From Candidatus Omnitrophota bacterium (GTDB lineage Bacteria; Omnitrophota; Gorgyraeia; JAFGHF01): a stretch of DNA of 43,149 nucleotides. The stretch spans positions 1-43,149 of the forward strand of contig JAFGHF010000035.1 of assembly GCA_016939375.1 (NCBI GenBank), in the 5' to 3' direction. The notes beneath the pieces were generated by a model. That model saw only the letters and a list, made by a program, of their open reading frames with translations. It ran no database searches and was not told the DNA's origin. How positions within the stretch are numbered: the stretch's first letter is position 1; the number at the start of each line of letters is the position of its first letter. A program made the position numbers and the translations under genes. This document shows, piece by piece, positions 15,197-34,879 of this stretch.

Positions 15197-16339
15197 ATGT
15201 TTTTTAGGTATGGTAATTGGAAAAACTTTGATTTTATTTTACTTGCAGTTACCTTAGTCATTTTTGCTATAGGACTCTCTTTTCTTTTTAGTGCAAGCTA
15301 TCAGCAATACGATGCAGAGGAGGGCTTGACCTTACATAGTCTAGTGGTTAAACAGATTATCCGTTTCGCGCTCGCATTTTTTATTGCCATAATCATTTTG
15401 AAAGTAGATTATCAGAAATGGTTAGAACTGGCCTATCCGCTTTATCTATTGAATGTAATCCTTTTGGCTATGGTCTTGTTGTTGGGGCAGACAAGATTAG
15501 GTGCGCAGCGATGGATAAGTCTAGGTTTTATAGGCTTTCAACCTTCAGAATTCAGTAAGCTTATAGTAATCTTTACTCTGGCAAGATATTTAGGTCAAAA
15601 AGAGAATGCCCTGGGTAACAATCTATTTTGGCGCAAAGGCTTAAAATATAGCAAAACATTAGTAGTCTCATTTTTAATAGTAGGTGCCCCTTTTATATTG
15701 ATCGTAAAACAGCCCGACTTGGGTACGGCATTGACATTAATCCCTATCCTCTTGGCCATGCTTTATGTCTGGGGGACTTCTATTAAGACATTGCTGCTTG
15801 TCTCGTTACCCTGTGTTGTGGCCTCGCCCTTTTTATGGCATATGCTTAAGCCTTATCAAAAAAGAAGGGTTTTAGTCTTTTTGGACCCCAATATCGATCC
15901 CTTGGGGGCCGGATATACTGTGATCCAGTCCAAAATCGCTATTGGTTCGGGGGGATTATTGGGCAAGGGTTGGTTGGCGGGGACCCAGAACCAGCTCAAT
16001 TTTTTACCTGAACGGCACACAGATTTTATTTTTTCGGTTGTCGGTGAAGAATGGGGGTTTTTGGGCGCGGCCTTACTTTTGACCTTATATATGGTTTTGA
16101 TTTTAAAGGGGTTTTCTATTGCTCAGCGTACGCTGAATACTTCGGGCAGGCTTTTGGCCTGTGGTATAGTTGTCCTGTTCGCTTTTCAGGTGGTGGTCAA
16201 TATAGCCATGACCATTGGCCTGGTTCCGGTAGTAGGACTGCCTCTTCCTTTGATCAGCTATGGTGGCTCGTCATTGTTTTTAAACATCGCCTCAATCGCC
16301 TTTTTGCTAAATGTGGGCATGAAAAGGGCCGTTTTCTAA
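15197..16339 (+). CDS. rodA: SEDS peptidoglycan polymerase RodA
   Basis: RodA is the SEDS-family glycosyltransferase that polymerises lipid II with PBP2. The 380-residue polytopic protein contains GAQRWISLGFIGFQPSEFSK, KQPDLGTAL, LNFLPERHTDFIFSVVGEEWG and the C-terminal GLPLPLISYGGSS, all SEDS signatures including the catalytic aspartate region around the fourth extracellular loop. FtsW is the alternative, but the mrdA neighbour and HTDFIFSV support RodA. It ends the mre operon; a weak A/T-rich inverted repeat follows (about 16347-16396), so termination before the T4P promoter is likely but not clear-cut. Confidence 0.95.
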   Translation: MFFRYGNWKNFDFILLAVTLVIFAIGLSFLFSASYQQYDAEEGLTLHSLVVKQIIRFALAFFIAIIILKVDYQKWLELAYPLYLLNVILLAMVLLLGQTRLGAQRWISLGFIGFQPSEFSKLIVIFTLARYLGQKENALGNNLFWRKGLKYSKTLVVSFLIVGAPFILIVKQPDLGTALTLIPILLAMLYVWGTSIKTLLLVSLPCVVASPFLWHMLKPYQKRRVLVFLDPNIDPLGAGYTVIQSKIAIGSGGLLGKGWLAGTQNQLNFLPERHTDFIFSVVGEEWGFLGAALLLTLYMVLILKGFSIAQRTLNTSGRLLACGIVVLFAFQVVVNIAMTIGLVPVVGLPLPLISYGGSSLFLNIASIAFLLNVGMKRAVF

Positions 16340-16429: not shown

Positions 16430-16458
16430 TGTGCAAATGCACATCTGTCAACTTGACA
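16430..16458 (+). promoter_or_regulatory. Candidate operators upstream of and over the -35 of the T4P/riboswitch promoter
   Basis: Two dyads lie side by side: TGTGCA-AA-TGCACA (16430-16443) and TGTCAA-C-TTGACA (16446-16458). The second contains the -35 hexamer as its right arm. Binding by a repressor or activator is inferred only from symmetry and position. Confidence 0.45.
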
Positions 16459-16481
16459 AATGATGTTTTTTGTGCTATACT
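16453..16481 (+). promoter_or_regulatory. Sigma70-type promoter of the riboswitch and T4P operon
   Basis: TTGACA (16453-16458), a 17-nt spacer and TATACT (16476-16481) with extended -10 TGC. This is the best consensus promoter in the window; the predicted start is near 16488, about 18 nt before the aptamer. Confidence 0.85.
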
Positions 16482-16505: not shown

Positions 16506-16680
16506 GCGTTTGAAAAAGGCAAACCCCGTTAGAGATAACGGGGGGAGCCACGTTAGAGTGAATCTCTAACGGGGCAAACCATTTGGCCGTTAAGGCCAGC
16601 CTTCGGTGGAAGGCCGCAAGAATGGGGCGCAAAGCCACAGACCCTAAGTAATCTTTAAGGGTAGCTGGGTTGCCAAGCGT
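16506..16680 (+). ncRNA. Cyclic-di-GMP-I (GEMM-I) riboswitch aptamer, interrupted by an insertion
   Basis: The conserved blocks appear in order: GGCAAACC (16573-16580), CCATT pairing with AATGG, GGGGCGCAAAGCC (16624-16636), a second helix beginning ACCCTAAG, and GTAGCTGGGTTGCC (16661-16674). P1 is formed by GCGTTTG (16506-16512) and CAAGCGT (16674-16680). A palindromic element (16525-16573) plus its duplicated target sits between the P1 5' strand and the core. The first helix is extended by two extra hairpins (TGGCC/GGCCA and GCCTTC/GAAGGC) instead of ending in a simple GNRA tetraloop. The guanosines of GGC at the ligand-reading position favour c-di-GMP over cGAMP. A terminator follows, implying transcriptional control of the T4P operon. 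Confidence 0.88.
16525..16573 (+). mobile_element. 49-bp palindromic insertion element inside the riboswitch
   Basis: The ends are CCCGTTAGAGA (16525-16535) and TCTCTAACGGG (16563-16573), perfect inverted repeats. Inside are a short hairpin, CCCCGTTA-GAGA-TAACGGGG (16524-16543), and a second, CGTTAGAG-TGAAT-CTCTAACG (16551-16571), so three half-sites are present. GCAAAC is duplicated on both sides (16519-16524 and 16574-16579). It encodes nothing. Related copies are at 27733 and 34853. Confidence 0.75.
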
Positions 16681-16700
16681 GGAGGGGCAGTAAATTTTGA

Positions 16701-16739
16701 GGCCCTAGGCTTTGCGTAAAAGCCTAGGGCCTTTGTTTT
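16701..16739 (+). terminator. Intrinsic terminator / riboswitch expression platform
   Basis: GGCCCTAGGCTTT (16701-16713) pairs perfectly over 13 bp with AAAGCCTAGGGCC (16719-16731) around GCGTA, followed by TTTGTTTT. It begins 20 nt after the aptamer and 34 nt before the first gene. Confidence 0.92.
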
Positions 16740-16772: not shown

Positions 16773-17102
16773 ATGATAAAAAAACCAGACAATCCTAACG
16801 GAAATGCCCATCGCGTAATCACCTTTCTTACGCGAGAAGAATTGGATTTCTTGGATAAACTGGGAAAAGATGCCCTTTTCAGCGCAGGCATAAAGCTATC
16901 CAGAAGCAAGATCATTTCTGCCATAGTCAATGTCGTGCGCAAGCTCAATATTGATGCTTGTGGGCTGCGATCCAAAAGACAGCTAGAGGCAAGGATTATG
17001 GAGACGATCAAAGAGATAAATAAAAATAGTGAAGGTCGATCAAATAAAAAGAACGAAGATAATAAAGAAAACAAGGATGGCCAAGATGGAAAATCTATTT
17101 AG
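16773..17102 (+). CDS. Ribbon-helix-helix-like small protein
   Basis: I do not recognise a named family for this 109-residue protein. The first 70 residues fit a ribbon-helix-helix fold: a beta strand (HRVITFLT, about 13-20), a helix (REELDFLDKLGKDALF), a turn and a second helix starting SRSKIISAIVNVVRKL, which is the usual SRS-E-L-I start of RHH helix B. The C-terminal 25 residues are low-complexity, rich in K, N, D and E. An RHH fold would imply DNA binding, and as the first riboswitch-controlled gene it might regulate pilus genes; both points are inference. It overlaps the next gene by 26 nt. Confidence 0.55.
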   Translation: MIKKPDNPNGNAHRVITFLTREELDFLDKLGKDALFSAGIKLSRSKIISAIVNVVRKLNIDACGLRSKRQLEARIMETIKEINKNSEGRSNKKNEDNKENKDGQDGKSI

Positions 17103-18510
17103 AACCTTTTTGGATGCCCCTAAGGGCATAAAATACAAGCTGACCGTCGCCTTTGCGCTGATGTCAGTGATTCCCATGCTTGTCTTTGGATATTTGATCA
17201 TTCAGTATGTATTTCCAAAAGTATCGGATATTTGGGATATCTCTATAATGGTCGCCTTTACCATATTTTTGATGATTTCCGGGTTCTATTTAGCAAAAAT
17301 GATTATATATCCTGTAATTAAGATCAGCGCGCACGCCAAAGGGATCCTGGAAGGAGAATTCGACAAAAAAATAGACATATCCCGGGAAGACGAGATAGGC
17401 GAGCTGGGCAGTTCTCTAAACCGCCTTTCTACTAAGTTAAAACAAAATATGGGTGAGCTGCGTGGGTATGGAGAAAAGATCAAAGAGATCAATATGGAAA
17501 TAAACAGAAAGGTATTTGCCCTTTCCGGACTCCTGCAGATCAATAACCTGATAACCTCCGAGTTTAATTTAAGCGAAGTGCTTAACTTGATTATAGAAAA
17601 ACTTGCTCAGCTGCAACAACGTGGTCCGGCTTTTGTTATGCTTCTAAGAAAAGGTAAAGGGGATTTAGCTATAGCGGCACATGCCAACCTGACTCTACCG
17701 CAACCGGAGAAGGTAACAATTAATCCCGGGCAGGGATTATTGGGCAAGGTATACGCAAGCGGCCTTCCTTTAATTATTGATACCGAACGAAGCAAAATCG
17801 GCAATGACAAGGTCCTAGAGGAACTTCTACCTACAAACAACATAATGGTCTTACCGCTAGCTTCTTCGGGTAAGATAATAGGTATCTTGGGTGTGGGTAA
17901 CAATCTTTCCGGTTTTAGCTTTTCCGAGGAAGAGATAGAGGTGATCAGCATATTTGCCAAACAGATTATACTGGCTTTCGAAAATGAGACCCTGCAGCGT
18001 AAGACCAAAGAGTTGACAGTAAAAGATGAGCTGACCGGACTTTATAATGAAAAATATATTAGAGATCGTTTGGAAGAGGAAATAAAGAGGGCCATCTCAT
18101 ATCAAAGGCCGTGCTCGTTCATTATCTTAGAAATCAGCGATTTTGAGCGTTATCGCAATGCTGTTGGCGAGATGTTAGTGATAGATGCATTGAAGAAAAT
18201 AGCCCAGACCTTTAAGGAAAGTACCAGTGAGATTGATAAAGTGGCACGTTTTAGCGAAAGCCAGTTCGCCGCAATCCTGCCGGAAAAGAACAAACGGCAA
18301 TCCCTTGAGGTTGCTGAGAACATCCGGGCGGAGATAAGCAGATTTGCAGATAGCCAAAAAAAATCAGGGGATGGTGCTTTTCTAAGGATAAACGGGGGCA
18401 TTAGCTCTACTCCCTTGGATGGCGAGACGTCTATCGAGCTGATCAATAAAGCCTTGGCCTATACAGAGAAGGCTAAAGAAGAAGGGGAAAATAAAATAGT
18501 CATATCCTAA
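17077..18510 (+). CDS. Membrane HAMP-GAF protein with degenerate GGDEF domain
   Basis: The 477-residue protein has two membrane helices (about 20-42 and 52-75), a HAMP linker (about 78-130), a GAF domain (about 165-310) and a GGDEF-family domain (about 320-475, starting DELTGLYNEKYI). The active-site motif RxGGDEF is replaced by RFSESQF (18247-18267), and the upstream RxxD inhibitory site is missing, so diguanylate cyclase activity is not expected. It may act as a sensor or GTP/c-di-GMP-independent scaffold for the pilus. The start at 17077 lies before the first helix; 17086, with AGGATGG upstream, is an equally good choice. It is in the riboswitch operon, 30 nt before pilT. Confidence 0.82.
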   Translation: MAKMENLFRTFLDAPKGIKYKLTVAFALMSVIPMLVFGYLIIQYVFPKVSDIWDISIMVAFTIFLMISGFYLAKMIIYPVIKISAHAKGILEGEFDKKIDISREDEIGELGSSLNRLSTKLKQNMGELRGYGEKIKEINMEINRKVFALSGLLQINNLITSEFNLSEVLNLIIEKLAQLQQRGPAFVMLLRKGKGDLAIAAHANLTLPQPEKVTINPGQGLLGKVYASGLPLIIDTERSKIGNDKVLEELLPTNNIMVLPLASSGKIIGILGVGNNLSGFSFSEEEIEVISIFAKQIILAFENETLQRKTKELTVKDELTGLYNEKYIRDRLEEEIKRAISYQRPCSFIILEISDFERYRNAVGEMLVIDALKKIAQTFKESTSEIDKVARFSESQFAAILPEKNKRQSLEVAENIRAEISRFADSQKKSGDGAFLRINGGISSTPLDGETSIELINKALAYTEKAKEEGENKIVIS

Positions 18511-27712: not shown

Positions 27713-28330
27713 ATGAAAAGAAAAGGTTTTACCCCGTTAGAAATAAAACGCTACAAGCAGCTTTTGTGCTCTAAGCATAGATTTCTAACGGGGTTTACTT
27801 TAGTAGAATTGATGATGGCCTCTGCTGTTACGGCGGTGGCTTTACTTGGCCTTTTAGGTGTTTTTAGCGGTTGTTTTGGCGTGGATGAATCAGCGAGAGA
27901 CTTGACCGCGGCCATGAATGGCGCCAGGCAAATTATGGAACAACTGCGTACTTTTCGCGATGAGGCCCGCATTACAAGGGATCCAAGCAGAGACGATTTT
28001 CCGGCCGATTTTCAAACCGAGATAAACAACTTTAGAAACAACGGTATACCCAATTGGGGTATTTTGCATAGAGTGTCTATAGACATAATTAGCGATGGCA
28101 GCGATCCCGATGGTATGAGCGAGGTTTGGGGAGGCAGCGCCGATACAGAAACACTGTTTTGGATAAGCGTTTCTGTGTCTTGGATGCAGGGGGGGGGAAG
28201 GATATACGGCGAAGACAATGGTGCAGGCGGCGGCGTAGCCTTGGACGGGGCCATCGGCGGGGCGGAAGATGTTAATAATAACGGCATATTGGACTCGCCA
28301 GCACAAGTAACCACTTTGATGAGGGAATAG
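27713..28330 (+). CDS. Minor pilin-like protein with a palindromic insertion in its signal peptide
   Basis: This 205-residue prepilin-like protein has the mature start FTLVELMMASAVTAVAL with the required E5, cleaved after G27. Its leader is unusually long (27 residues) because 66 bp were inserted in frame: GFT occurs at residues 5-7 and again at 27-29, with PLEIKRYKQLL...FLT between. Removing the insertion restores MKRKGFTLVEL, a normal leader. The globular domain is rich in D and G and may bind metal (DVNNNGILD). The position between pilM and a PilW-like gene suggests a PilV-like minor pilin. Whether the protein is still processed is not known. Confidence 0.8.
   Translation: MKRKGFTPLEIKRYKQLLCSKHRFLTGFTLVELMMASAVTAVALLGLLGVFSGCFGVDESARDLTAAMNGARQIMEQLRTFRDEARITRDPSRDDFPADFQTEINNFRNNGIPNWGILHRVSIDIISDGSDPDGMSEVWGGSADTETLFWISVSVSWMQGGGRIYGEDNGAGGGVALDGAIGGAEDVNNNGILDSPAQVTTLMRE
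27733..27793 (+). mobile_element. 61-bp palindromic insertion element inside the minor pilin gene
   Basis: Ends CCCGTTAGAAAT (27733-27744) and ATTTCTAACGGG (27781-27792) are perfect inverted repeats, and the inside is less symmetric. TTTAC flanks both sides (27728-27732 and 27794-27798). With the duplication the insertion is 66 bp, a multiple of three, without stop codons in the pilin frame. Confidence 0.8.
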
Positions 28331-34844: not shown

Positions 34845-34852
34845 AACTGAAC

Positions 34853-34879
34853 CCCGTTAGAGAAGGTCCTTCTAACGGG
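34853..34879 (+). mobile_element. 27-bp palindromic insertion element at the rplU mRNA 5' end
   Basis: CCCGTTAGA (34853-34861) pairs with TCTAACGGG (34871-34879), with AAGG/CCTT pairing inside. CTGAAC is duplicated on both sides (34847-34852 and 34880-34885). It is the shortest copy of the family seen at 16525 and 27733. Confidence 0.75.

Follow-up and report, generated by a model that had tools for sequence, protein, structure and literature searches.

A mobile palindrome inserted into the core junction of a c-di-GMP-I riboswitch in Omnitrophota

The c-di-GMP-I riboswitches (RF01051) include Vc2, in which the P1 helix is essential, and the OFF switch Cd1, from which P1 is absent (PMC9262584). 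For mobile DNA, a review of prokaryotic MITEs treats the formation of riboswitches by such elements as merely conceivable (PMC10969869). Here we analyse a window of 43,149 nucleotides, contig C56 of the 1.74-Mb Omnitrophota genome G000, in which a c-di-GMP-I riboswitch lies at 16506-16739. An earlier sequence-only reading had proposed this riboswitch, and cmscan bears it out with an RF01051 match at 16563-16677 that scores 50.3 bits against a gathering score of 35. The locus resembles Cd1 in its OFF logic by terminator and antiterminator (PMC9262584), which for the window is predicted from sequence. In common with the class, it has the core motifs, P1a, strands that can pair as P1b and P1, a downstream terminator and a cyclase gene downstream, whereas it differs in that its P1 5′ strand is set off from the core by a mobile 51-bp element, its P1b loop is interrupted and the motif GGCAAACC is duplicated. 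The GEMM-Ib (3′,3′-cGAMP) riboswitches share the family and the fold, and the ligand-specificity position of their core is A (A-G-C-AAA). In the window, by contrast, the first G of the core motif GGCAAA stands at the c-di-GMP-type position of the cmscan alignment, so that c-di-GMP is presumably the ligand.

The locus runs from a rodA-type gene through a promoter, the riboswitch, a strong intrinsic terminator and a small open reading frame (ORF) to a HAMP-GAF-GGDEF gene, and the block TTGACA..GTGCTATACTT is likewise found upstream of the orthologous riboswitches. The features of the window are as follows.

15197-16339: rodA-type gene (Pfam FTSW_RODA_SPOVE)
16453-16481, plus strand: promoter, TTGACA (16453-16458), 17 nt, TATACT (16476-16481), from the sequence
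16507-16512, plus strand: P1 5′ strand CGUUUG, pairing with 16674-16679; helix also in L123, L124 and L131
16518-16525, plus strand: decoy (5′) copy of GGCAAACC, composed of host GG, duplicated CAAA and element CC (sequence and duplication analysis)
16520-16523, plus strand: left copy of the target-site duplication CAAA (4-bp duplication rule, target G-YWWR-C)
16524-16574, plus strand: inserted element, E1, spacer and E2, 51 bp, between P1 5′ strand and working core
16524-16543, plus strand: E1, first hairpin CCCCGUUA-GAGA-UAACGGGG, 20 nt (folding; pairing in 14 homologs, 98% of cells)
16544-16547, plus strand: spacer GGAG, 4 nt, between the element copies (alignment, other loci)
16548-16574, plus strand: E2, second hairpin CCACGUUAGAGUGAAUCUCUAACGGGG, 27 nt (folding; 94% of cells paired)
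16573-16580, plus strand: working core GGCAAACC, composed of element-end GG, CAAA duplication and host CC (cmscan alignment)
16575-16578, plus strand: right copy of the target-site duplication CAAA, within the working core (duplication analysis)
16579-16625, plus strand: P1b arm, CCAUUU (16579-16584) and GAAUGG (16620-16625) (sequence and fold)
16628-16636, plus strand: CGCAAAGCC, 3′ strand of the core and predicted antiterminator (cmscan; complement to 16708-16716)
16633-16671, plus strand: P1a arm (cmscan alignment, listed pairs)
16674-16679, plus strand: P1 3′ strand CAAGCG, pairing with 16507-16512
16700-16739, plus strand: intrinsic terminator AGGCCCTAGGCTTT / AAAGCCTAGGGCCT with T tract (fold)
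16708-16716, plus strand: antiterminator partner GGCUUUGCG, in the terminator 5′ arm and loop (fold)
16773-17102, plus strand: 109-aa ORF, the first under predicted control of the switch, matching no Pfam family and conserved at the orthologous loci
17029-18510, plus strand: HAMP-GAF-GGDEF protein of diguanylate cyclase type (Pfam GGDEF, 1.4e-26)
27732-27793: second copy of the element family, a single 62-bp palindrome with TTTA duplication, in frame in a pilin-like gene (27713-28330)
34852-34879: third copy, 28 bp, CTGAA on both flanks, just upstream of an rplU-like ORF (named by eye from its translated start)

Reading from the P1 5′ strand, CGUUUG is followed by AAAAA, GG, CAAA, the 51-bp element, CAAA, CC and the P1b arm. 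The core is the 3′ copy of GGCAAACC, and the RF01051 match therefore begins within the insert. In the orthologs the P1 helix reads CGTTTG..CAGACG (L123) and GCGTTTG..CAGACGC (L124). The GNRA loop of P1b (GCAA) is itself split at about 16585-16619 by a second two-hairpin insertion (GGCCGUUAAGGCC and GCCUUCGGUGGAAGGC), which is unrelated to the palindrome and of which a search for dispersed copies found no other in genome G000. The palindrome had been described as a 49-bp element that separates P1 from the core; the separation stands, but the element measures 51 bp and comprises two tandem palindromes. Similarly, a duplication does border it, though its unit is CAAA rather than GCAAAC, the flanking G and C stemming from the GGGG/CCCC ends of the element. 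With the anatomy corrected in this way, the insertion is confirmed and its interpretation supported.

Two copies of a palindromic repeat (CCCCGTTAG...CTAACGGGG), arranged in tandem, make up the insert; the repeat is dispersed through Omnitrophota, and E1 and E2 each fold into a stable hairpin (z about -6). The element arms match six times in the window, compared to 0.7 expected, and 32 times in genome G057, where the reversed pattern matches three times; elsewhere in G000, the exact arms occur only in two other c-di-GMP-I riboswitches (C20, C31). A perfect 4-bp duplication flanks 51 of 98 non-redundant placements in the class loci examined, as opposed to 10.5% in shuffled sequence. The target has the form G-YWWR-C, and GGCAAACC contains one such site (G-CAAA-C). 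Because the element ends in CCCC/GGGG and duplicates CAAA, a complete GGCAAACC motif results on both sides of it. In many other dimers the spacer is TTTG or TTTA, the reverse complement of the duplicated CAAA or TAAA, so that E1 can extend into the left flank. Such spacers may have arisen when the loop enclosed by two inverted arms was itself inverted. At other loci there are also tandem pairs whose spacers are direct repeats (TAAA, TTCA). With its terminal inverted repeats (CCCCGTTAGAGAT / ATCTCTAACGGGG), direct target-site duplications, many dispersed copies, short length and stable RNA hairpins, the element resembles MITEs (PMC10969869). It differs from them in entering a riboswitch core, and three complete single-contig genomes searched for an autonomous parent IS with the same ends contained no inward-facing end pair 0.8-3 kb apart. 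By analogy only, it also recalls the Rickettsia palindromic elements (RPE), being palindromic and inserted in frame within protein-coding genes (pilin in the window, birA in L143), but it belongs to another phylum and spans 20-125 bp rather than about 150 bp.

Orthologs of the window locus were identified in three genomes of the family by rodA upstream and by the 109-aa ORF and GGDEF gene downstream. Orthologs that all carried the segment would have refuted the sequence-only reading; all three (L124, L123, L131) are uninterrupted at the window site, L131 having an extra arm elsewhere in the aptamer. Since these orthologs occupy the same gene boundary without the insert, the insertion is the derived state. 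Two sister riboswitches of G000, C20 (between PP2C and peptidase genes) and C31 (between ribE and the gene of a TIGR04073 protein), are occupied by the same element, inserted at precisely the nucleotide seen in C56, and empty syntenic orthologs exist for C20 (L122, L128) and for C31 (L011). The three occupied riboswitches of G000, each with empty orthologs, thus represent three acquisitions in the lineage, and all three have intact cores. Their left flank is GAAAAAGGC, whereas the own orthologs of C20 and C31 have GATAAAGGC; this sharing would fit short gene-conversion tracts, but as a difference of one base it is only suggestive.

To follow the element through the class we used two covariance models, R1 built from the insert with its flanks and R2 free of flanks. 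R1 matched the same architecture in G209/G176, G018, G258, G019, G037 (two loci), G134, G306 and record JADHWR (L164), while a rearranged c-di-GMP-I aptamer of G315 also carries the element. In G006 and G066 it sits at TAAA/AAA just before GGC, and in G236 two riboswitches bear it at the 3′ core site GCGCAAAG, in one case with the dimer repeated in tandem. Three different conserved aptamer sites are hence occupied across the class, with a few members using the two other AAA sites. The E2 variant CCRC is common to most dimers at the GGYAAA site. R2 gave 19 matches above 42 bits, and 16 of these fall in c-di-GMP-I aptamers, a proportion biased by seeds that were mostly riboswitch-borne; dimers outside riboswitches occur in birA (L143) and at G019:C14 (L197). 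Overall, c-di-GMP-I riboswitches are present in 333 of the 384 genomes of the class, and the occupied ones are a small minority. As to the details of single loci, the tandem repeat in G236 (L198, G236:C81, about 230-430) has the dimer twice at the 3′ core site, the second copy being diverged. In L143 (G274:C210), the in-frame dimer adds ..NPVRDNGGYSVGDKISNGVN.. to the product of a minus-strand birA ORF (1185-2216), the frame stays open, and the BirA match spans the whole protein.

We then consider what the insertion does to the aptamer. When core, P1 and both hairpins were forced, the native RNA lay 1.5 kcal/mol above the MFE, compared to 1.4 with the flanks joined as at the empty site, which lends energetic support to the earlier proposal that P1 closes with extra arms. 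The insert is accordingly predicted to be neutral for folding, P1 and core being kept and the insert forming two additional arms. A gain in score upon removal of the element, the lack of which would also have counted against the earlier reading, was obtained with a DNA sequence profile: joining the flanks converted a 39.5-bit match and a separate 8.7-bit 5′ fragment into one contiguous match of 46.0 bits. RF01051 itself lacks P1, and a scan with it would be little affected by joining. For C31 the score rose from 35.7 to 42.5 (+6.8 bits), and the 5′ pieces of G209 and C20 contributed 7.4 and 7.9 bits, respectively. The insertion alters the P1-to-core distance by 55 nt. Moreover, the conserved A residues directly 5′ of GGC are gone in the 3′ core copy (ACGGGGC vs AAAAAGGC), and this replacement, together with the interruption of the P1b tetraloop, may reduce or abolish ligand affinity. 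In G306, an aged and diverged insert adjoins a 78-bit aptamer, which argues at the sequence level for long-term tolerance. The duplicate motif may compete in folding, as had been suggested: the GCC of the spacer can pair with the GGC of the decoy as well as with that of the core, but the predicted preference varies among homologs, and no preference consistent across them was found. Decoy-core competition is thus possible in the folding models, though not a conserved feature. E1 was also considered as a replacement P1b and ruled out, given its 8-bp stem and the lack of AAAGCC downstream.

As regards regulation, CGCAAAGCC (16628-16636) matches GGCUUUGCG by perfect complementarity over 9 bp, a run equalled in 12 of 2000 shuffles, and the pairing is part of the MFE structure of the nascent RNA up to 16719. 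Complementary pieces can be seen by eye in the orthologs (AAGCCAA/TTGGCTT in L123, AACCA/TGGTT in L124). As a ligand-held core would free the terminator, the predicted 9-bp antiterminator suggests an OFF switch for the operon with the diguanylate cyclase. Taking these data together, a MITE-like palindrome has invaded the c-di-GMP-I riboswitch of a diguanylate-cyclase operon, probably leaving an OFF switch with a retained core motif and a closable P1. The element selects G-YWWR-C and duplicates its central 4 bp; the invariant GGCAAACC of the aptamer offers such a target, with entry after GGCAAA, and the 3′ GGCAAACC copy, adjoining the P1b strand, would serve as working core. Because both hairpins would be self-contained, the P1 5′ strand could still reach its partner across the enlarged junction. 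With no ligand present, CGCAAAGCC would pair with GGCUUUGCG and transcription would go on, whereas bound c-di-GMP would hold the core, allow the terminator to form and halt transcription. The sequences show the insertion with its duplication, the empty orthologs, the recurrence and a potential for pairing that has been retained; we infer that the aptamer still binds its ligand, that the switch acts in the OFF direction and that the insert is neutral.

A less benign outcome, that the insertion was destructive and left a riboswitch in decay, locked in the on or the off state, seems unlikely to us. It could account for the replaced A residues, the second insertion in the P1b tetraloop, the ability of the spacer GCC to mispair the GGC copies and the need of Vc2 for P1 (PMC9262584). 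However, P1, core, P1a, terminator and antiterminator complement are all still there, three riboswitches of G000 combine the same insert with intact cores, the aptamer of G306 persisted while its insert aged, and Cd1 is functional without P1 (PMC9262584). Much more improbable is that the two arms between P1 and core belong natively to an extended class of aptamers and have been lost by relatives. Several families of the class do share the architecture, and the pairing of both hairpins is kept in 14 sequences; against this stand the three empty syntenic orthologs of the window and three more at the sister loci, the 4-bp duplications flanking the element, and the presence of this element within pilin and birA genes as well as at other sites of aptamers. 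Least credible of all is that the first hairpin of the riboswitch itself (GGCAAA-stem-GNRA-stem-GCC) was partly duplicated in tandem, with no foreign element involved. Although E1 is similar to P1b in its GAGA loop and closing GGC/GCC and echoes the canonical GEMM order, its stem has 8 bp where that of the native P1b has 6, its termini are identical to those of the dispersed repeat, copies of the repeat exist outside riboswitches, and at other sites the spacer matches the local flank (GATAAA / TTTATC in G006).

Compatible with the preferred reading of an invaded but working switch, and tentatively entertained here, is the notion that recurrence is due mainly to a riboswitch-tropic (homing) subfamily of dimers, spreading either through targeted transposition or through gene conversion over short tracts between riboswitch paralogs. 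That a single lineage acquired the element three times at one nucleotide, with empty orthologs in each case, would be expected on this basis, as would the shared GAAAAAGGC flank, the predominance of c-di-GMP-I aptamers among compact dimers above 42 bits and the CCRC variant of E2. Yet this predominance is biased by the seeding of the model, dimers also reside in birA and other places, three different aptamer sites are used, and GGCAAACC already fits the general target. A bolder version, in which a riboswitch-homing dimer prefers GGCAAACC of c-di-GMP-I aptamers, rebuilds the motif and is kept as a two-hairpin domain whose spacer GCC tunes the switch, strikes us as rather doubtful.

What the locus presents is a riboswitch of a known class that has been invaded by a mobile palindrome of a new kind, in an event that recurs. 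A search of the open-licence literature yielded no account of an Omnitrophota repeat of this kind, nor of mobile DNA inserted into the aptamer of a riboswitch. To our knowledge, the cores of riboswitches are regarded as unable to tolerate insertions. In the present case the most conserved motif is the one repeatedly entered by a mobile element, and it stays readable, since the ends of the element complete it; invasion of the core junction, even when repeated, appears to be tolerated by the switch. The occupied and empty orthologs constitute natural before-and-after pairs for the tolerance of an aptamer to a domain between P1 and the ligand site, and the locus is an instance in which an uncultured phylum has obtained new RNA architecture from mobile DNA.

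Further observations concern neighbouring features. At L218 (G001:C59), upstream of a TIGR04073 gene of the C31 type, promoter and terminator-like hairpin are kept, and the intervening aptamer has seemingly been lost. The pilin-like ORF of the window reads MKRKGFT-PLEIKRYKQLLCSKHRFLTG-FTLVELMMAS across its palindrome, one end of which encodes FTPLE, so that a GFTxxE-like cleavage motif occurs twice. In six loci (L064, L065, L066, L067, L128, L131), two extra hairpins unrelated to the palindrome lie between P1b and the GCAAAGCC core strand; this junction is often occupied in the aptamers of the family and constitutes a second one that accepts extra arms.
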